From: Methanospirillum lacunae
GTDB taxonomy: Archaea > Halobacteriota > Methanomicrobia > Methanomicrobiales > Methanospirillaceae
Assembly (NCBI RefSeq): GCF_003173355.1
Contig: NZ_QGMY01000002.1
Coordinates: 868,001-932,000 of the forward strand
Reading direction: 5' to 3'
DNA: 64,000 bases
In this document: in pieces, positions 32,811 to 42,293 of the stretch
Layout: every line of letters begins with the position of its first letter
How positions within the stretch are numbered: the first letter of the stretch is position 1
The notes under the pieces: generated by a model
Told to the model about the DNA's origin: nothing
The model's input: only the letters and a program-made list of their open reading frames with translations
Database searches by the model: none
Program-made: the position numbers and the translations under genes

Positions 32811-33884
32811 ATGGAAAATCAGATTATCGCCCATCTTGACATGGATTCATTCTATGCTTCTGTTGAGATCCGTGATGATCCCTCTCTTACAGGACAACCG
32901 GTCGTAGTTGGCTCTGATCCTCAGGAGGGAAAAGGACGCGGTGTGATCAGCACATGCTCATATGAAGCACGAAGATATGGTCTCCATTCAGGGATGCCGA
33001 TATCTCAGGCATGGCAACTCTGCCCCCATGCCGTATATATTCGTCCAAGTGGAAAATACAGCATTGTTTCTGCTCGAATTATGGAAATCCTGCAGTATTA
33101 TACGCAACATCTTGAACAGGTTAGTATAGATGAAGCATATCTTGATTTTTCTGACTGTGGTTCCTATGATCAAGCAGAAGAACGAGCTTTTTTTATTAAA
33201 AAAGTTTTACAGGAACATGAAGGGTTGAGTTGTTCAATAGGGATTGCACCGGCCCGTTCCTACGCAAAAATTGCATCAGACCTACAGAAACCTAATGGCT
33301 TGACCATCATCCGACCAGATAATCTAAAAAAAATAATATCCTCTCTTACTGTCGATAAGATTCCAGGGATCGGAAAAAAGTCATACGCACTGCTACAATC
33401 GCGTAAATTATCTACATTTAAAGATCTTGCTGAAGCAGACATTCAACTTCTTCAGGAAATTTTTGGAGCATGGGCAGTGCGAGTTCAGGATATTGCATCT
33501 GGCAATGATATCTCCGGACTTAAGGATCAGGGACCACGTCAATCCATCGGGAGGGAGACAACCTTTGCCGAAGATACTACTGATCCGGATCTGATATCAA
33601 CAACCCTCGATGATTTGGCACGGTCACTTCATGCAGAACTGCTTAGAGTTCACGCACGAACAAGGACAGTAGGTATTCGTATACGATACACAGGTTTTGT
33701 TACATACACCAGATCAGTCTCGCTATCCCATGCTGATGATAATCTGGCGTCAATCATGAAAGCTGCACATTCATTGATTGAAGAGTGTTGGGAAGGAAAA
33801 CCAGTACGTCTGATCGGGATAAGACTCTCTGGTCTCGTGTATCATGATCCTAAACAGTGTACTCTGGATCAATTCTTCAGTTAA
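32811..33884 (+). CDS. dinB: DNA polymerase IV (Y family)
   Basis: This 357-residue translesion polymerase has catalytic acids in HLDMDSFYASVE (D10, D12) and SIDEAYLD (D107, E108). 'GVISTCSYEARRYGLHSGMP' marks the finger region, the helix-hairpin-helix 'VDKIPGIGKKSYALL' follows at about 180, and the little-finger domain covers about 240-345. The C-terminus 'CTLDQFFS' resembles a PCNA-binding peptide (QFFS in place of QxxLxxFF), so clamp docking is likely. It is full length. It converges with the permease gene; only 26 bases separate the stops. Confidence 0.95.
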   Translation: MENQIIAHLDMDSFYASVEIRDDPSLTGQPVVVGSDPQEGKGRGVISTCSYEARRYGLHSGMPISQAWQLCPHAVYIRPSGKYSIVSARIMEILQYYTQHLEQVSIDEAYLDFSDCGSYDQAEERAFFIKKVLQEHEGLSCSIGIAPARSYAKIASDLQKPNGLTIIRPDNLKKIISSLTVDKIPGIGKKSYALLQSRKLSTFKDLAEADIQLLQEIFGAWAVRVQDIASGNDISGLKDQGPRQSIGRETTFAEDTTDPDLISTTLDDLARSLHAELLRVHARTRTVGIRIRYTGFVTYTRSVSLSHADDNLASIMKAAHSLIEECWEGKPVRLIGIRLSGLVYHDPKQCTLDQFFS

Positions 33885-33910
33885 AAAACGTACAATACAA
33901 ACTGGAAAAA

Positions 33911-35305
33911 TCAGGGGTAAAAGTACTGGATCGCAAACGCGACCATGTACGTCAAGACCCCGAATATCACCTGGGGGATAGTGTAACGCTTAAAGACAGT
34001 CTTCACATCATCCCCAGTTGTCCGGTGAAGCAGCCAGAAATAGGGATCTGTAACAAAGCAGATGACTCCTGCTCCTGCGATGATCATCAGGAAAAGTGCC
34101 AACGGGTTCATCATCGGAGGAATACCAGTACTGGCAATTATCTGCGCGGTAAGTATCGAGGTGACGATACGGGATCCCTGGGCAGTCTGAATGAGAGCTG
34201 CCATTACAAAGGGAATCAAAATGAGCGGAACATTTTGTGCAAGCACTACCAGTGAATCCTGGGCAAATGTACTCTGGGTGATCACATATCCAAGTGCTCC
34301 GGCCCCGCAGATGTCAAAAATTACAACTCCTGCATGCTTTGCTCCGGATACAAATCCCGTCCATCTGTTTTCAGGTAGTGCTACCATTACAGCAGCAATC
34401 ATTCCTGCAAACATAATGAACTGAACCAGTGTGAAATGCGAGAGATGAAGAAGAAATAGACCGACCGGTATTGCAGCAAATATTACCAGAAATGGCACCC
34501 AAGCCTTTGGATGAAATTTACCAGTGCAAAGACCCGAATCAATCTCACATCCGGGTTGTACATACTTTTGATCTGAATAACCACTCTCCTCAAGCCCCCA
34601 TTCAGCACCTTCTGACCCTTCTGATATGATTTCGGATTCGGCCTTTTCAGTTTTCCCAGGAATCAGTGAACTTGGCTGAATATCCGATATTTGCTCTGTT
34701 ACTTTAGGGGCCCTCCATTTGGTCCACCAAATCAGAAGACCCAGAAAAATCACCGAGAGGGTGATCGTTACCATGTCAAAAGTTAATGGGGTGAGGTGTT
34801 TAGGTCCAAAAGTGTCAAAGAGCGGAAAAGTGACTGGAGTAGGATAGACAAATGCTACACCAAGTGTACTACCTAGAGCTACCAGATACATAAGGCTAGA
34901 CTGGCGCTTTTTATCAGGAGCTAAGTGAGAAAGCACTGGCTGGAGAATCATGTAAGCTGTGATCGGACAAGTTGAAGGAACAGCGATAATATATCCAGCA
35001 AATCCAGAAAGTGAGAGCGGGCTTTTAAGGACTTTTCTGATATCTGAAACGATCTGTTGAATATAACCCTGTTCAACAAGATATTTTGCGATAACTGAAC
35101 CAGCAAGAATTGGTATTCCCAGACTATTAAAAACACTTGCGCAGCCTGTTGCAACCTGTGTAAAAACCGCATCGGGATTCCCACCAACTGCAAATCCGAA
35201 TGCCACCGCACCACCAACAAGGGTGATAAAAGGAGGTACACGGAATTTTATCCCTATCACAGAGATAAGAATGATAATGATGAAAAATATCTGCAGGGTG
35301 TACAT
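33911..35305 (-). CDS. GntP-family permease
   Basis: This 464-residue integral membrane protein has about 12 hydrophobic helices. 'FIIIILISVIGIKFRVPPFITLVGGA' at the start and 'GFAGYIIAVPSTCPITAYMIL', then 'GSTLGVAFVYPTPVT', match the gluconate:H+ symporter family, as does the long hydrophilic loop near 205-260. GntP proteins carry gluconate or other hydroxy acids with protons. Which acid a methanogen would import is unclear, and no sugar-acid catabolic gene is adjacent. The unusually long acidic loop (EKAESEIISEGSEGAE) is a family variation. Confidence 0.75.
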   Translation of the reverse strand: MYTLQIFFIIIILISVIGIKFRVPPFITLVGGAVAFGFAVGGNPDAVFTQVATGCASVFNSLGIPILAGSVIAKYLVEQGYIQQIVSDIRKVLKSPLSLSGFAGYIIAVPSTCPITAYMILQPVLSHLAPDKKRQSSLMYLVALGSTLGVAFVYPTPVTFPLFDTFGPKHLTPLTFDMVTITLSVIFLGLLIWWTKWRAPKVTEQISDIQPSSLIPGKTEKAESEIISEGSEGAEWGLEESGYSDQKYVQPGCEIDSGLCTGKFHPKAWVPFLVIFAAIPVGLFLLHLSHFTLVQFIMFAGMIAAVMVALPENRWTGFVSGAKHAGVVIFDICGAGALGYVITQSTFAQDSLVVLAQNVPLILIPFVMAALIQTAQGSRIVTSILTAQIIASTGIPPMMNPLALFLMIIAGAGVICFVTDPYFWLLHRTTGDDVKTVFKRYTIPQVIFGVLTYMVAFAIQYFYP

Positions 35306-35495
35306 TGAATAATATCACTCCTGATATAATATCAAATACCGTTCAGAATGAAATCCGACCACCATACGCTTGAAGAAGCAATTTATATAATTATTAGGAG
35401 GTTGTTTCCGGATAAACAGGTGCGCAGAGAACAGGGAGGCTTACAGAGAAGAAACGAAAGAGTTGATAAATCCAAGAAGAAAAGAATACTACATA

Positions 35496-35795
35496 ATGAT
35501 GGGGGGTCAATTTGAGAAGGGGCGGTGGGTGGAAGAACCTACACAACAGGCATCTGCTACGGGATCACCGGATGATCTTACAGAAAGGCTTAGTCAAGCA
35601 AAGGCTTCATTTGGGAAAGGTTTAGATGAGCTTCTCTCAGTCGGCAAGGAACTACTGACAACTCAGGAAGGCCGAAAGCATATTGGCAGAAGTATGGATC
35701 AGACAGGTGCTGAGATCATGGGAACCCTTGAGGAGACTGCCAGAAAGGCAACAGAATACATCTCTAGCGTTCTCGAACAGAAACGCAAAGACTGA
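35496..35795 (+). CDS. Conserved small protein, unknown function
   Basis: The ATG at 35496 gives 99 residues starting MMGGQFEKGRWVEEP; a TTG at 35463 is also in frame. The N-terminus is polar. From about residue 30 there is a long amphipathic helix region ('LTERLSQAKASFGKGLDELLSVGKELL') and a second ('TGAEIMGTLEETARKATEYIS'). It has no Cys, signal peptide or membrane helix. It may be a helical cytoplasmic protein that coats or associates with a partner. ATTTATATAA at 35381-35390 is a good TATA box, giving a leader of about 85 bases. A second small gene follows 46 bases later. Confidence 0.6.
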   Translation: MMGGQFEKGRWVEEPTQQASATGSPDDLTERLSQAKASFGKGLDELLSVGKELLTTQEGRKHIGRSMDQTGAEIMGTLEETARKATEYISSVLEQKRKD

Positions 35796-35841
35796 AATAA
35801 CACAATACAAAACGCCATCTGCAGGCTTTCATAATACATTC

Positions 35842-36084
35842 ATGCCTAAATGGTTAGATACCGGATCACAACTTCTTAATCTGGATTATATTGCCAAATT
35901 TCAGGTTATAGAGATGACCCGGGAAGTAAAGGGTCAGGTCATCGTGGAAAAGGCTGTACTGAAGGCCATGATGAAAGACGGGGAACAAATAAACATTGCA
36001 GCATTTAAGAACCGGATGGATGCGGTGACATGGATGAGAACCAGACTCCGTAACAGTGAAGAAAAAGTGATCCAGGTTCGATAA
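35842..36084 (+). CDS. Small basic protein (80 aa), unknown function
   Basis: The ATG at 35842 encodes 80 residues, MPKWLDTGSQLLNLDYIAKF... ending KVIQVR. The order looks like strand-strand-strand-helix: 'FQVIEMTREV', 'GQVIVEKAVLKAMM', 'EQINIAAF', then a Lys/Arg-rich helix 'MDAVTWMRTRLRN'. This is a compact alpha-beta fold, but I do not recognise the family. It lies 46 bases after the previous small gene and is probably in its transcript. Confidence 0.55.
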   Translation: MPKWLDTGSQLLNLDYIAKFQVIEMTREVKGQVIVEKAVLKAMMKDGEQINIAAFKNRMDAVTWMRTRLRNSEEKVIQVR

Positions 36085-36195
36085 TTACTACCATTTCTCA
36101 TATTCTCTAGCAGAACGAGATAATCATCAGTGTTTTATTTGTTTTTTGGCTACCTTTGGGCAAAATTTATCTGCCTTAACTGTGAGTGAGATTGC

Positions 36196-37107
36196 ATGAG
36201 TAAATCCATTTATGTACCTCTGGATGTACCAAAAGATCAACAGAAAACCTATACCAGCAATTTTAAAACTATTACCCATGAATCAGGAAGGCTCATGCTC
36301 TTTGCCGGGGATCAGAAGATTGAGCACCTGAACGCAGATTTTTTTGGTGATGGAATTCATAAAGACGACAACGATCCCGAGCATCTCTTTCGTATAGCTG
36401 CAAAAGCTAAGATCGGATGTTTTGCAACTCAACTCGGACTTATTGCGCGATATGGTGCAGACTATCCCGATGTTCCCTATCTTGTCAAAATTAATTCTAA
36501 AACCAATCTGGTTGGTACATCACAACAGGAACCGTCATCAGGCCTTTTAAACACTGTAGAACAAGTAGTCAGATTTAGAAAAAGCAGCGGTTTAAAAATT
36601 GGCGGGATCGGTTATACAATATATCTTGGATCAGAGGCTGAATCAGAGATGCTGTCAGCAGCTGCTAACGCAATCTTTGAAGCACACCAAAACGGTCTCG
36701 TAACTGTGCTATGGATATATCCAAGAGGAAAAGCAGTCAAGGATGAGAAAGATCCACACCTTATTGCAGGTGCCGCAGGTGTTGCAGCATGTCTAGGTTC
36801 TGATTTTGTGAAAGTAAACCCACCAAAGAAAGAGGGGGCATCATCTGTTGAACTGATGAAGGAAGCAACTCTGGCAGCAGGAAGAACCAAAGTAGTCTGT
36901 GCGGGAGGTTCAAGCGTTGATGGAGAAATTTTCCTGAAACAACTCTGGGAACAGATCCACATCGGTGGTTGTGCTGGTAATGCAACCGGACGGAACATCC
37001 ATCAAAAAAGCCTTGATGAAGCCGTCAGGATGTGTAATGCAATCTATGCAATCACCGTTCAGGATGCATCAATTGAAGAAGCAGTAAAAATATACGAAAA
37101 AAAGTGA
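36196..37107 (+). CDS. Class I fructose-bisphosphate aldolase family enzyme
   Basis: This 303-residue member of the DeoC/FbaB (beta/alpha)8 aldolase family has 'MLFAGDQKIEHL' near residue 35, 'GIGYTIYLGSEAE', 'LWIYPRGK' and the Schiff-base Lys region SDFVKVNPPKK (about 199-209). 'VVCAGGSSVDGE' binds phosphate. In methanogens such enzymes catalyse fructose-1,6-bisphosphate cleavage or formation in gluconeogenesis. The related ADH synthase (aromatic amino acid route) shares the fold, so the exact reaction is not certain. ATG at 36196; single gene with T8 after the stop near 37134. Confidence 0.82.
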   Translation: MSKSIYVPLDVPKDQQKTYTSNFKTITHESGRLMLFAGDQKIEHLNADFFGDGIHKDDNDPEHLFRIAAKAKIGCFATQLGLIARYGADYPDVPYLVKINSKTNLVGTSQQEPSSGLLNTVEQVVRFRKSSGLKIGGIGYTIYLGSEAESEMLSAAANAIFEAHQNGLVTVLWIYPRGKAVKDEKDPHLIAGAAGVAACLGSDFVKVNPPKKEGASSVELMKEATLAAGRTKVVCAGGSSVDGEIFLKQLWEQIHIGGCAGNATGRNIHQKSLDEAVRMCNAIYAITVQDASIEEAVKIYEKK

Positions 37108-37179: not shown

Positions 37180-38067
37180 TTATTTCCCAATCTTCATTAA
37201 AATCTCTTCAAGTGACGGATATTTTGATTCAATACGCTCTACTACTCCACCATTATTAGAAATATCAGAGGTAAGGGCATTAAGATCAGGAACAGACCGG
37301 ACTGTTGACATCCAGAGATTTCCACTTTTTTCAGTTCCAACAGGCAATGTCAAGGGACTTTCTCCAAGAAGATGGAACCATACCTCATATCTAATTGAAC
37401 CAAACTGCTCTCTAAGTTCTGGCATGGTCCCTCTGATAACAACATCTCCCTGCTTTAATATCATTACCAGATCGCAGATCTCTTCAACCTGATTGAGATT
37501 GTGTGCAGATAGGATGATAGTCTTACCGCGATTCCGCAGATCTTTAAGGTATTCAATGATGAACCGACTGGTCATCGGGTCAAGACCAGAACCAGGCTCA
37601 TCATAAACAAGGATTGCAGGATCATGAATAAGGGTTCGTGCAATTGCAACCTTTCTCTTCATGCCTTTGGATAAATTTCCAATCCGTTTCCCATCAGGAT
37701 TTAATGATAATTGGGCAAGTAATATACCGGCACGGGAATCTACTGTCTCCCGATCTAGTCCGTAAATCTCCCCAAAAAAGCGAAGGTAATCTGGAACCGT
37801 CATGGTTTCATAAAGGCGTGATTCTTCAGGAAGATAGCCGAGCTGGCACTTGACCTGCATGGGATCGGAAAGAACATCAACACCACCGATGGTAAGGCTC
37901 CCTGAATCAGGCTTAATGAGGCCTGAAAGAATCTTGAGTAGGGTGGTTTTTCCTGCACCGTTATGCCCGATAATTCCCAGGATTTGCCCTTCCTCACAGG
38001 TAAAGGATACATCGTGAAGCACAGTTGCCTCACCATACTTCCTGGAGAGATGTGACGCATTGATCAT
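37180..38067 (-). CDS. ABC transporter ATP-binding subunit
   Basis: The start is placed at the ATG at 38067, with AGGAAAAGGAAG upstream; a longer frame starts at 38091. The 295-residue protein has Walker A GHNGAGKT (about 30-37), a Q-loop 'GYLPEES', signature LSKGMKR (about 128), Walker B 'ILVYDEPGSGLD' and H-loop 'SAHN'. A C-terminal extension of about 80 residues follows. It is of the NatA/CcmA export type. It is divergent from the permease gene at 38122, leaving only 54 bases for both promoters. It should energise the two permeases on the plus strand. Confidence 0.93.
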   Translation of the reverse strand: MINASHLSRKYGEATVLHDVSFTCEEGQILGIIGHNGAGKTTLLKILSGLIKPDSGSLTIGGVDVLSDPMQVKCQLGYLPEESRLYETMTVPDYLRFFGEIYGLDRETVDSRAGILLAQLSLNPDGKRIGNLSKGMKRKVAIARTLIHDPAILVYDEPGSGLDPMTSRFIIEYLKDLRNRGKTIILSAHNLNQVEEICDLVMILKQGDVVIRGTMPELREQFGSIRYEVWFHLLGESPLTLPVGTEKSGNLWMSTVRSVPDLNALTSDISNNGGVVERIESKYPSLEEILMKIGK

Positions 38068-38121: not shown

Positions 38122-39978
38122 ATGATTGATATATGGTGGCGTTCAATTCTCACCATTATGCAGATGCTGCATCAGCTTTTTACCATCTCACGGTGGGAGG
38201 TCAAACGTTTCTTCACCACTATGAGCAGGGATCTGCTCCCTATTTCGGTAATACTCCTGATTCTCCTCGTCCTGGTGAGTGGATTTGCTGCACAACGCGG
38301 GATGCATCTGCAGGATGGACTGTATAGGATTGGGATTGACAGCCCAACATATCTTGAAATTATTGGAAATGATCCCAGATATACAGTTTATGATACGAGT
38401 AATCTTTATGGAGTGACCCCGCAGAAAGCAGGTACTGATCTAAAGATCCAAACAGGGACGATTCTTCGAACACCTGGAGAGAAAGGTAAAGCTGCTCAAA
38501 AAAGTTTTGAACGCGATTACCAAGCATACTCTGATAGGATATATCAACAACAAAAAGATCTTTTTGCCGCATATCCTCTCTGGATTCAAAATGAGTACGT
38601 TTCAAGTGAACTCAACTTTCTAGCAACGCAGACCGGACAGCAGATCGGTATTCCCGGGCAGGCATATAATGAGGCTCCAGAACCAGATCTTCCGGTTGAG
38701 GAAGTTACACCACCGGTCTCATCAGTTCCGGTAGATTCGGAAGAACTGCGGATGAGCCTCGCTGAACAGATGAGAAATGACCAGGAGCAGGTGAGTAGAT
38801 ATACGGGAATTTTTTCAAAGGCTGACACTACGCAGATTCCCTATAAAGTTCCCTCTCTCCTCTCTCCTCCACTTCCATTTGATACCATCATCTTCATTTT
38901 TGTCTTCATTTTTCCGCTATACTTCACATCTCAATTCTTCATGATGAGTATCATGAACGAGCGCACCCTGAGGCAGGGAGAAGCACTTATTGCCGCCCCA
39001 ATTAAACCGGAAATCCTTATTTTTGGAAAAATGTTGCCATATGCCATCGGTATGATCCTATTAGCATCTGCAATCCTGTTTGCAGTTCATACAGATATCA
39101 TAGCTATCCTGCCACTCATTCCTGTTATCTTATTCTTTCTCGCATTTGCTCTCTTTATTGGAATGGTATCCCGCAGTTTTAAAGAACTCTCATTCATCTC
39201 TATCTTCTTCTCAACAATTGCTACCTCATATCTTTTCTTTCCAAGCCTCTTTGCAAATGTTCACATTGTAAGCCTTCTTTCACCGGTCACTCTTGTTGTA
39301 TATGTAATCCAGGGAACCGGTTACACACTAATGGAGTATCTGTATGCGACTTCTCTCTTCTACCTGACAAGTTTCATTATCTTTGGTATCTGTATAAAAA
39401 ATTTCAGAGAAGAGCAACTATTTACAGAATCCAGTATGGTTTCAAAGGTAAGGCTCTATCTTGCCGGACTGATACAACCCCGTCACTGGTGGTTCTCACT
39501 TTTTATTATCGGGTTGATCAGTATACCTTTCGTTCTCATGGCCCAGATGATGTACCTGGTTCTCTTCTTTAACCTCCCAATGCCTTTTTCATTAATTTTG
39601 ATAATGTTGCTTGCTGCTTTTACTGAAGAGATGGCAAAAGGGGCTGGAATTATAGCACTTATCACTGCAATGCCAGGATTTCTAAATGCACGTATACTAG
39701 TGATTGCCTCAGCCCTCATTGCATTAGGGTTTCTTGTTGGAGAAAAATTACTCCTTTTTGTTACCATTTCGCAAATATCAGATTCCGTTTTTGGTGCAGC
39801 CCTGTTCCTGAGCATCGGAATGCTCTGGATGCCATTCCTTTTGCATACAGTTGGAGTCTGTATAACCGGAGCTTTGGTTCTATACAAAGGGCCAAAAGCG
39901 TTGCCATTTGGTCTAGCCCTTGCCACAGCAGTGCATCTTACCTATAATCTGTATATGCTCAGGGGGTGGCTTTGGTGA
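38122..39978 (+). CDS. ABC-2 permease fused to PrsW-like intramembrane protease domain
   Basis: This 618-residue protein begins with an ABC-2 permease: a first membrane helix (about 38-58), an extracytoplasmic loop of about 180 residues, then a cluster of six helices (about 255-430). Residues about 455-618 carry the four motifs of the PrsW glutamic protease family: EExxK (E502, E503, K506 in TEEMAKG), GFLVGEK, HTVG (H575) and HLTYN (H605, N609). All sit on membrane helices. ABC-2 permease domains are normally not fused to PrsW. The start has GAGG 5 bases upstream. It partners with the divergent ATPase and the next gene (GTGA overlap). The substrate and the target of the protease are unknown. 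Confidence 0.8.
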   Translation: MIDIWWRSILTIMQMLHQLFTISRWEVKRFFTTMSRDLLPISVILLILLVLVSGFAAQRGMHLQDGLYRIGIDSPTYLEIIGNDPRYTVYDTSNLYGVTPQKAGTDLKIQTGTILRTPGEKGKAAQKSFERDYQAYSDRIYQQQKDLFAAYPLWIQNEYVSSELNFLATQTGQQIGIPGQAYNEAPEPDLPVEEVTPPVSSVPVDSEELRMSLAEQMRNDQEQVSRYTGIFSKADTTQIPYKVPSLLSPPLPFDTIIFIFVFIFPLYFTSQFFMMSIMNERTLRQGEALIAAPIKPEILIFGKMLPYAIGMILLASAILFAVHTDIIAILPLIPVILFFLAFALFIGMVSRSFKELSFISIFFSTIATSYLFFPSLFANVHIVSLLSPVTLVVYVIQGTGYTLMEYLYATSLFYLTSFIIFGICIKNFREEQLFTESSMVSKVRLYLAGLIQPRHWWFSLFIIGLISIPFVLMAQMMYLVLFFNLPMPFSLILIMLLAAFTEEMAKGAGIIALITAMPGFLNARILVIASALIALGFLVGEKLLLFVTISQISDSVFGAALFLSIGMLWMPFLLHTVGVCITGALVLYKGPKALPFGLALATAVHLTYNLYMLRGWLW

Positions 39979-41045
39979 ATGTTCATAGGGTCTTGACAAT
40001 TACAAAAAAAGAACTCCGCGGACTTGCAAATGAGAAAACTATCCTGTTAGCAATCCTTCTTCAACTCTTTATAGCACTCTTCTCATCGTTTCTAATGGTA
40101 GGTCTCTCTGCAATGTATGACCCAACCACATATGGAAGTATTTCCGGAGTAAAATACGGAGTAGGAGTGGTTGGAAATGATACAATCCTGAAAGGGTTAC
40201 TTGATGAAAATCCATCATTTAAATCATATCAAATGAATCTTTCAGTGGCACTTGGGGCACTTAAGGAGAGAAAACTTGCAGCAGTAATCTGGACATCAGA
40301 AACTCCCCCGGAAAGTGTGGACCCTGTCAGCCTAACACTTTATACGATAAAAAATGATATTCAGTCAGCGGTTATCGAGGTAAAAATCAAGGAAGTATTT
40401 CTAAAATATGAGGACATCCTTCGAGATGTAAGAAGTGACCGTATTACGAAGCATCCCGTTACTATAACCTCGGCAAGACCTGTAAACTCAAACACTTTTT
40501 ACGAATTTATTTATGCCCTGTTGATACCTCTCCTTCTTTTCATGCCTGCCATCATATCAGCAGGACTGGTTATAGATCTCATAACTGAAGAATACCAGCA
40601 ACAGACAATTGATACCCTGCGTACTACCCCTGCTTCCATGAATGAGATCATATGGGGAAAGATAAGTGCCTGCATTCTTCTAGTACCGATGGAAGCAGGT
40701 CTTTGGCTTGTGCTACTAATACTGAACAGAATAAGAATCGGATCTCTTCCAGAAATCCTTCTGCAGGTTATCTTTGCCTCCTCTGCCCTCATTCTGGTCG
40801 CTGCTCTTCTGGCACTTTATTACCAGGACCGAACAAAATCACAATTTATCTTCTCAACAGCAGCTGTTATTCTTCTTCTGCTCACACTTGCATTTCCAGG
40901 AAATCCTCTCAATATTATTGCTCAACTTGCCTCTGAATCACCAGCTCCGCTCTTCTGGCCAGTTCTTTTCGTTTTTATCTGTTTCTGTATAATATTGACT
41001 CTGTTAATACGCGTAACCGTACGAAAGGCAACAGAAACATCGTAG
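39975..41045 (+). CDS. ABC-2 type permease subunit
   Basis: This product has 356 residues from the GTG at 39975, which forms GTGA with the upstream stop and has AGGGGG 8 bases before it; a GTG at 39966 is in frame. A first membrane helix lies at about 25-45. An extracytoplasmic loop of about 120 residues contains 'VGVVGNDTILKGLLDENPSF', a feature of NatB-type exporters. Five further helices follow, including 'LLIPLLLFMPAIISAGLVIDLITEE'. It is the second permease of the exporter. It has no PrsW motifs. Confidence 0.85.
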   Translation: MNVHRVLTITKKELRGLANEKTILLAILLQLFIALFSSFLMVGLSAMYDPTTYGSISGVKYGVGVVGNDTILKGLLDENPSFKSYQMNLSVALGALKERKLAAVIWTSETPPESVDPVSLTLYTIKNDIQSAVIEVKIKEVFLKYEDILRDVRSDRITKHPVTITSARPVNSNTFYEFIYALLIPLLLFMPAIISAGLVIDLITEEYQQQTIDTLRTTPASMNEIIWGKISACILLVPMEAGLWLVLLILNRIRIGSLPEILLQVIFASSALILVAALLALYYQDRTKSQFIFSTAAVILLLLTLAFPGNPLNIIAQLASESPAPLFWPVLFVFICFCIILTLLIRVTVRKATETS

Positions 41046-41108: not shown

Positions 41109-41657
41109 GTGGCTGATACATATTCATCATCTGGTTGGGCAGATCTTATCAGGGGAAGTTCACAGGGTAGGGAACTTGCCGGGTTCTGGCGTCGTTTTGC
41201 GGCATCAATCATTGATCTGATAATTCTTTGTATAATCAATGGTGTTGCCGCGGCATATCTTGGCCTTGGTGAAGGTTGGAGAATGCTCATGATGATTATT
41301 CGAAGGCAGGCAATCGTGTCAGATGATGGAATTCCTACAACATCACTTGTTCCAATGCCGGTGGCAACATGTATTCTGGTTCTCTTTATCCTTATTCCAT
41401 GGATCTATTTCGCCTCTCTCGAATCTTCACGAAACCAGGCTACACTAGGTAAGATGGCATGCAGGGTAGTCGTGTCTGACCTGCACGGAAAACCGGTCAC
41501 ATTCGCAAGGGCCACATTACGACATTTTTCTAAATTTATTTCTGGAATCTTGGTATTTACAGGATTTCTCTGTATTGGATATACAAAATACCACCAGGGT
41601 CTTCATGATGTAGTCGCAGCAACACTTGTGTGGTACCAGCGTGAAACAGTAGAATAA
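41109..41657 (+). CDS. RDD-family membrane protein
   Basis: This 182-residue protein has a GTG start at 41109. Residues about 28-50 show GFWRRFAASIIDLIIL, the defining R-D pattern of RDD (Arg then Asp-Asp-like) membrane proteins. Helices follow at about 85-105 and 150-172, and 'GKMACRVVVSDLHGKPVTFARATLRH' is the family's second motif. RDD proteins have been linked to ion or small-molecule transport, but the function is poorly known. It lies 63 bases after the ABC permease on the same strand and may be read through from it. Confidence 0.85.
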   Translation: MADTYSSSGWADLIRGSSQGRELAGFWRRFAASIIDLIILCIINGVAAAYLGLGEGWRMLMMIIRRQAIVSDDGIPTTSLVPMPVATCILVLFILIPWIYFASLESSRNQATLGKMACRVVVSDLHGKPVTFARATLRHFSKFISGILVFTGFLCIGYTKYHQGLHDVVAATLVWYQRETVE

Positions 41658-41906: not shown

Positions 41907-42293
41907 TTAAACTTTCGATGAATTCGTCGCAGCAGATACATTAATCGAACCATTGATCAGATGCTCATCAAATTCTGACTCGTTGGTTTTACTGTGGGCA
42001 ATCAGGTTTGAATCAAAATCTGATGTGTTTATTTTGCTGTGGGCTATCAAATTTGAATCAAAATCAGAAGTATTCACTGAAGCATTAATCAGATGATTAT
42101 CAAAATCTGATGTGTTGATCTTACTATGAGCAATAAGATCTGAATCAAATCCAGAAGAATTAATAGTACTGTCAGCGATCAGTTGCCTGTCAAATTCAGA
42201 AGTATTGAGCCCAACATCAGCATATACACAGACTATCCCTAGGACCAGAATAACCCCCGCACAGATACATTTTTCAACCAATCTCATAACCAT
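41907..42293 (-). CDS. Secreted tandem-repeat protein with N-x-S sequons
   Basis: This 128-residue protein has a signal peptide (to about residue 26, VCVYA) and then six tandem copies (residues 30-117) of a 14-15 residue unit, typified by NTSDFDSNLIAHSKI. Every unit begins N-x-S, the archaeal N-glycosylation sequon, and has FD, LI and S at fixed places. The tail NVSAATNSSKV adds two more sequons. No membrane anchor follows. It is probably a small, heavily glycosylated surface or secreted protein. No family is recognised. Flanks at 41658-41906 and 42294-42495 show no other gene. Confidence 0.65.
   Translation of the reverse strand: MVMRLVEKCICAGVILVLGIVCVYADVGLNTSEFDRQLIADSTINSSGFDSDLIAHSKINTSDFDNHLINASVNTSDFDSNLIAHSKINTSDFDSNLIAHSKTNESEFDEHLINGSINVSAATNSSKV
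41943..42206 (-). repeat. Tandem coding repeat, about 45-bp period, six units
   Basis: This DNA encodes the six 14-15 residue units of the secreted protein. Units four and five are almost identical at the DNA level (near 41985-42075), pointing to recent duplication, whereas the first, third and last have diverged. Units three and six are one codon shorter. Confidence 0.75.

Follow-up and report, generated by a model that had tools for sequence, protein, structure and literature searches.

Precedents for the locus analysed here are found in Firmicutes, where an ABC exporter is functionally coupled to an intramembrane protease and a cut within the membrane is followed by export. Linear peptides of S. 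aureus are acted on by Eep and then by EcsAB (PMC7157817), streptococcal pheromones are handled by Eep together with PptAB (PMC5167397), and EcsAB has been found to be required for RasP, with a membrane 'cleaning function' being proposed (PMC2996298). In these EcsAB/PptAB and RasP/Eep systems, the exporter and the protease are separate proteins, the protease is a site-2 metalloprotease and the permease belongs to a different family from the one described below. A second comparison is offered by the NCBIfam family NF041647 (ABC transporter permease subunit/CPBP intramembrane protease), in which an ABC permease is likewise fused to a membrane-embedded protease. The two proteases belong to one broad clan, but that of NF041647 is of the CPBP type and the one here of the PrsW type. 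In a survey of archaeal fusion proteins, ABC transporters, many of them ABC-2, formed the largest fusion clusters, and proteases go unmentioned in its main text (PMC11237513).

Within the 64,000-nucleotide stretch of Methanospirillum lacunae DNA that was analysed (the window), positions 38122-39978 of the forward strand form a single intact frame of 618 codons with no internal stops, in which an ABC-2 half-permease is followed by a PrsW-family domain (Table 1), an architecture that we regard as nearly certain. The initial annotation had read an ABC-2 permease and a PrsW-like domain in one frame, which we confirmed by the frame itself, by Pfam and by profile-profile comparison. A frame error near 39470, which it had named as a possible source of a spurious junction, was ruled out: the contiguous frame recurs in orthologues from 55 of 61 relatives at 45-89% identity, most of them about 600-640 amino acids long.

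Table 1 Features of the fusion gene and its partners (window coordinates).
Feature	Position	Strand	Evidence or remark
ABC transporter ATPase of the trio, divergent from the fusion gene; possible start 38091	37180..38067	-	PF00005 E=4.9e-31
ABC-2 half-permease part of the fusion: TM1, extracytoplasmic domain (residues ~59-252), TM2-TM6	38122..39456	+	PF12698, AF2 helices, positive-inside charge pattern
Predicted PrsW-family intramembrane protease domain (residues 455-618), five helices with EExxK, FxxxEK, H and HxxxN	39484..39975	+	PF13367 in orthologues, hhalign, AF2
Motif 1, E502-E503-M-A-K506	39625..39639	+	Conservation among 159 distinct fusion proteins
Motif 2, F537-L-V-G-E541-K542	39730..39747	+	Conservation among 159 distinct fusion proteins
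Motif 3, H575	39844..39846	+	Conservation among 159 distinct fusion proteins
Motif 4, H605-L-T-Y-N609	39934..39948	+	Conservation among 159 distinct fusion proteins
Second ABC-2 half-permease, no protease domain	39975..41045	+	PF12679 E=7.2e-9, PF12730 E=2e-6
RDD-family membrane protein	41109..41657	+	PF06271 E=7.4e-24; starts 64 bases after the second permease

Residues 39-424 of the fusion protein matched ABC2_membrane_3 (PF12698; E=5.7e-13, 49.1 bits against a cut-off of 31.6), which was the sole Pfam match of the permease part. The first transmembrane helix, the extracytoplasmic domain and the five further helices are shared with other ABC2_membrane_3 half-permeases, from which the fusion differs by its added C-terminal protease domain and by its pairing with a protease-free second half-permease. 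The two permeases are homologues by hhalign (E=4.6e-8), and the extra domain is carried by only one of the pair. The true start of the fusion may be the ATG at 38158, because many orthologues begin near window residue 13. A search of PDB sequences with the full fusion protein gave no match, while Foldseek with the full-length model returned ABC matches only, all of them weak and led by a mycobacterial efflux pump (E=0.03). Taken together, the locus holds the parts of an ABC-2 exporter, namely permease domains in the fusion (PF12698) and in the second permease (PF12679 and PF12730) and a cognate ATPase with Walker A, Walker B and signature motifs, and its ABC-2 family membership suggests transport in the direction of export.

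We found no permease homology to EcsAB/PptAB, the permease part of the fusion matching ABC2_membrane_3 alone in Pfam, and the likeness to those systems, drawn by analogy, is purely functional. Membership of NF041647 was also rejected: the fusion protein gave no match, and the second permease, which weakly resembles the permease half of that family, reached 30 bits against a cut-off of 435 bits. The initial annotation had overstated how isolated the idea of such a fusion is, as the bacterial ABC permease-CPBP fusion already carries a family name.

The motif residues of the C-terminal domain were found where they had been read from the letters, as E502-E503-x2-K506, G536-F537-x3-E541-K542, H575 and H605-x3-N609. 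The domain shares with PrsW (PF13367; B. subtilis PrsW, MEROPS M82) the four ordered motifs EExxK, FxxxE, H and HxxxN/D on helices. The profile search that had been proposed as a check gave a divided answer, in that the window copy alone showed no match to PF13367 in Pfam, whereas ten orthologues exceeded the curated cut-off of 23.5 bits in whole-genome searches, two of these by whole-frame score only. PF13367 was matched by 24 of 48 orthologous C-terminal domains from Methanomicrobiales (best 4e-8), and a broader sampling gave 18 matches among 28 domains (best 8e-9). When compared by hhalign with stand-alone archaeal PrsW from related genomes, the order-level profile gave E=2.4e-5 and the phylum-level profile E=1.3e-7, the motifs EExxK, FxxxE, H and HxxxN being aligned. 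The AlphaFold2 model of the domain (pLDDT 91.8, pTM 0.86) set all four motifs on long membrane helices, as expected for the PrsW/Rce1/APH-1 fold. Overall, homology to PrsW is strongly supported. No stand-alone PrsW was detected in the window's own genome.

The fused domain differs from PrsW in being joined to an ABC permease and in consisting of a five-helix core only in the AlphaFold2 model. Eight transmembrane helices, a trait of most PrsW proteins that is not a strict requirement (PMC3482391), are absent, and the core of four motif-bearing helices common to PrsW and Rce1 (PMC4602095) is present. A further difference is the lysine (K542) that follows E541, where most stand-alone PrsW have asparagine. 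A CPBP identity was rejected, since motif 1 reads EExxK and motif 2 FxxxE, against EExxxR and FxxxH in PF02517, and this Rce1-like Pfam model matched 3 of the 48 domains, weakly (best 0.004). Rce1/CPBP proteases and APH-1 share the fold clan, APH-1 not being a protease by itself; with the domain model, Foldseek placed APH-1 of gamma-secretase on top in the PDB at a level that was not significant (prob 0.96, E=0.27), and a search of a viral structure library returned nothing useful.

Topology was derived from AlphaFold2 helix boundaries and loop charges over 48 orthologues, which placed the N-terminus inside, followed by six permease helices and five PrsW helices, with the C-terminal end outside. 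Lysine and arginine are absent from the outer loops 377-402, 483-488 and 552-565 and abundant in most inner loops. Counted from the outer end of its helix, E502 is at a depth of 13 residues, E541 of 11, H575 of 10 and H605 of 12, from which we infer a protease site near mid-membrane where the motif residues, at one level, would cluster.

Conservation was read from 159 distinct fusion proteins, which were gathered by likeness to the fusion and are uninformative on how often the domain is lost. E502, E503, E541, K542, H575 and H605 were invariant (159/159), F537 was conserved in 158, and N609 in 157, the remaining two having aspartate. K506 was likewise present in 158; the lone exception, with arginine and hence EExxR in motif 1, comes from a Methanofollis MAG (L233). 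The proposed catalytic residues rank among the least variable positions in the entire fusion protein, and selection on the whole active site is strongly supported by these alignments. With such constraint, we consider it quite probable that the predicted PrsW domain is an active protease.

The fusion belongs to a trio of genes. The ATPase has complete nucleotide-binding motifs (Walker A GHNGAGKTT, signature LSKG, Walker B LVYDEP, D-loop SGLD), and its closest NCBIfam relative is drrA, at a score below the drrA cut-off. The GTG start of the second permease overlaps the TGA stop of the fusion (GTGA at 39975-39978), an overlap that suggests translational coupling of the two. The ATPase and second permease had been named as partners in the initial annotation, which had also called for a neighbourhood survey across Methanomicrobiales. 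Each of the 40 long-flanked Methanomicrobiales loci has ATPase, fusion and second permease side by side, as do nearly all loci sampled from the rest of the phylum, so that the partnership is conserved far beyond the order. At every locus examined, the second permease came next 3' of the fusion. Methanomicrobiales have the ATPase gene in divergent orientation, whereas the three genes are co-directional in several other loci; these are probably haloarchaeal, the one named case (Haladaptatus) being certain.

When a conserved substrate, partner or small cargo gene was sought beside the trio across the phylum, none was found beyond the trio itself. Genes that recur nearby, the RDD gene among them, were confined to Methanomicrobiales and look like local synteny. 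Of the 40 loci from that order, 15 have an RDD homologue close to the trio, all of them, so far as could be seen, from the window's own family. None was seen outside the order, and this gene is possibly an accessory outside the core trio. Upstream of the trio, 32811-37107 shows genus-level synteny: a DNA polymerase IV-like gene, an aldolase-like gene and one for a small charged protein also occur there in other genomes of the genus. Further along, the reverse-strand frame 41907-42293 encodes an apparently secreted protein of 128 residues with near-identical units (e.g. SDFDSNLIAHSKINT), weakly resembling pentapeptide repeats (PF13599 E=4.4e-4, below the cut-off).

At class level, the fusion was found in 174 of 232 genomes (116 of the 135 good ones), and at phylum level in 200 of 393 (189 of the 321 good ones). 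In a broad search, the best 80 of 401 matches all came from Methanomicrobiales or unassigned Euryarchaeota, and the named loci among the matches listed include Methanospirillum, Methanoregula, Methanoculleus, Methanolinea, Methanogenium and others. In Haladaptatus salinisoli, a 540-kb plasmid carries the trio (L259, 4096-7875), with a DUF4112 gene 3' of it, and the annotation names simply ABC transporter genes. The RefSeq label of this fusion orthologue is 'ABC transporter permease subunit', and the PrsW domain of the fusion is overlooked in annotation. Haloferax HVO_0408, labelled 'PrsW-like', is a possible further case of the fusion. One genus of the same order (g29) showed no fusion in any of its listed genomes (G056, G075, G076, G079, G080, G091, G094 and G095). 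As these genomes are 95-99% complete, the pattern resembles a clean loss confined to a single lineage.

Loss of the domain alone was tested by running a permease-only profile on 295 genomes of the phylum, 147 of which were positive, normally with a single copy. No complete match had a frame shorter than 520 codons, shorter ones being found only at a contig edge or in a broken frame, and a permease with no room for the protease was not seen in this 295-genome sample. In a tree that carries a long-branch caveat, fused domains and stand-alone archaeal PrsW were split on one branch (100/99), a pattern that fits a single fusion event. Permease and protease distances correlated among 39 proteins (r=0.86, from pairs that are not independent).

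The best overall explanation, to which we give somewhat less than an even chance, is an exporter with a built-in protease that cuts and extracts. The complex would be a heteromeric ABC-2 exporter powered by two ATPases, in which one of two homologous half-permeases bears the PrsW-family intramembrane protease at its C-terminus. The PrsW site would cleave transmembrane or signal-peptide-like segments coming in from the bilayer, and the ATP-driven permease pair would then pull out the hydrophobic cleavage product. The coupling of these two steps is put forward with slightly more reserve. Of the 'export-and-cleave machine' in the initial annotation, the structural part stood, and export and cleavage are a fair inference that the invariance of the proposed catalytic residues strengthens. 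Fusion of the parts implies that they work together; the order and direction of their action are not given by it. A general role, in clearing or maturing membrane peptides, is more likely than one devoted to a single peptide, because the trio comes with no dedicated cargo gene and has a near-core distribution.

An alternative explanation is that the protein is a sensor or regulator, in which the state of the exporter (substrate load, ATP) controls a protease that cuts a membrane-bound partner, the transported molecule being a signal and not the protease substrate. PrsW in Bacillus acts as the site-1 protease of a signalling cascade (PMC9263693, PMC4602095). EcsAB affects RasP activity, which places an ABC transporter upstream of an intramembrane protease, and such control would suit a physical fusion. 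However, the trio has no conserved partner gene, and we consider this reading unlikely. The anti-sigma-factor role of PrsW in bacilli cannot carry over directly, because archaea are not known to have sigma factors or sigma/anti-sigma pairs, and this too speaks against the regulatory reading.

In bacteria, proteases are commonly built into peptide exporters or encoded next to them, and the protease could process an exporter component or a cargo at a single site, like C39 peptidase-ABC transporters or CPBP proteins beside bacteriocin exporters. The permease-only search, in which permease and protease were not seen apart, is in keeping with such maturation. We nevertheless hold it to be improbable, as the trio lacks a conserved small cargo gene at its side, the C39 enzymes are cysteine proteases that work in the cytosol and not within the membrane, and the near-core distribution is unlike that of a bacteriocin system.

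It is similarly improbable that the PrsW-like domain is no protease at all and instead modifies lipids or proteins, or acts as a scaffold that presents substrates, in the manner of LnsB or APH-1. Of these relatives, LnsB is required for the N-acylation of lipoproteins, whereas APH-1 by itself shows no proteolytic activity (PMC7387801). APH-1 is the closest fold in the PDB, and K542 replaces the asparagine that follows the motif-2 glutamate in most stand-alone PrsW. This role is disfavoured because the catalytic residues, invariant here in 159 proteins, are missing or poorly conserved in LnsB and APH-1 (PMC7387801). Finally, although the window copy has no PF13367 match and short motifs can arise by chance, the idea that a plain permease merely has additional helices, or that two genes were joined by a frame error, is refuted, and given practically no weight by us, by the same contiguous frame in more than 100 genomes, orthologues above the Pfam cut-off, a profile-profile E of 1.3e-7 and the invariant motifs.

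Returning to the exporter that cuts and extracts, the widest form of this explanation, a phylum-wide machine in one complex that is based on PrsW and is an independently evolved counterpart of RasP/Eep with EcsAB/PptAB, is offered tentatively. We found no account of an ABC-2/PrsW fusion in the open-licence literature, and an earlier mention elsewhere is possible, for example in comparative studies of the CAAX protease superfamily. Fusions of an ABC permease with an intramembrane protease are already known as a kind through NF041647, and the PrsW version is apparently undescribed; its notable points are its breadth, its invariance and its fixed partners. Cells need to handle the hydrophobic fragments left after signal-peptide or intramembrane cleavage, and the fusion joins a predicted cutter and a pump in one conserved protein, so that point mutations in the cutter or in the pump give access to their coupling. 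For the PrsW family, familiar chiefly through a stress pathway of Bacillus, this would add a role in archaea.
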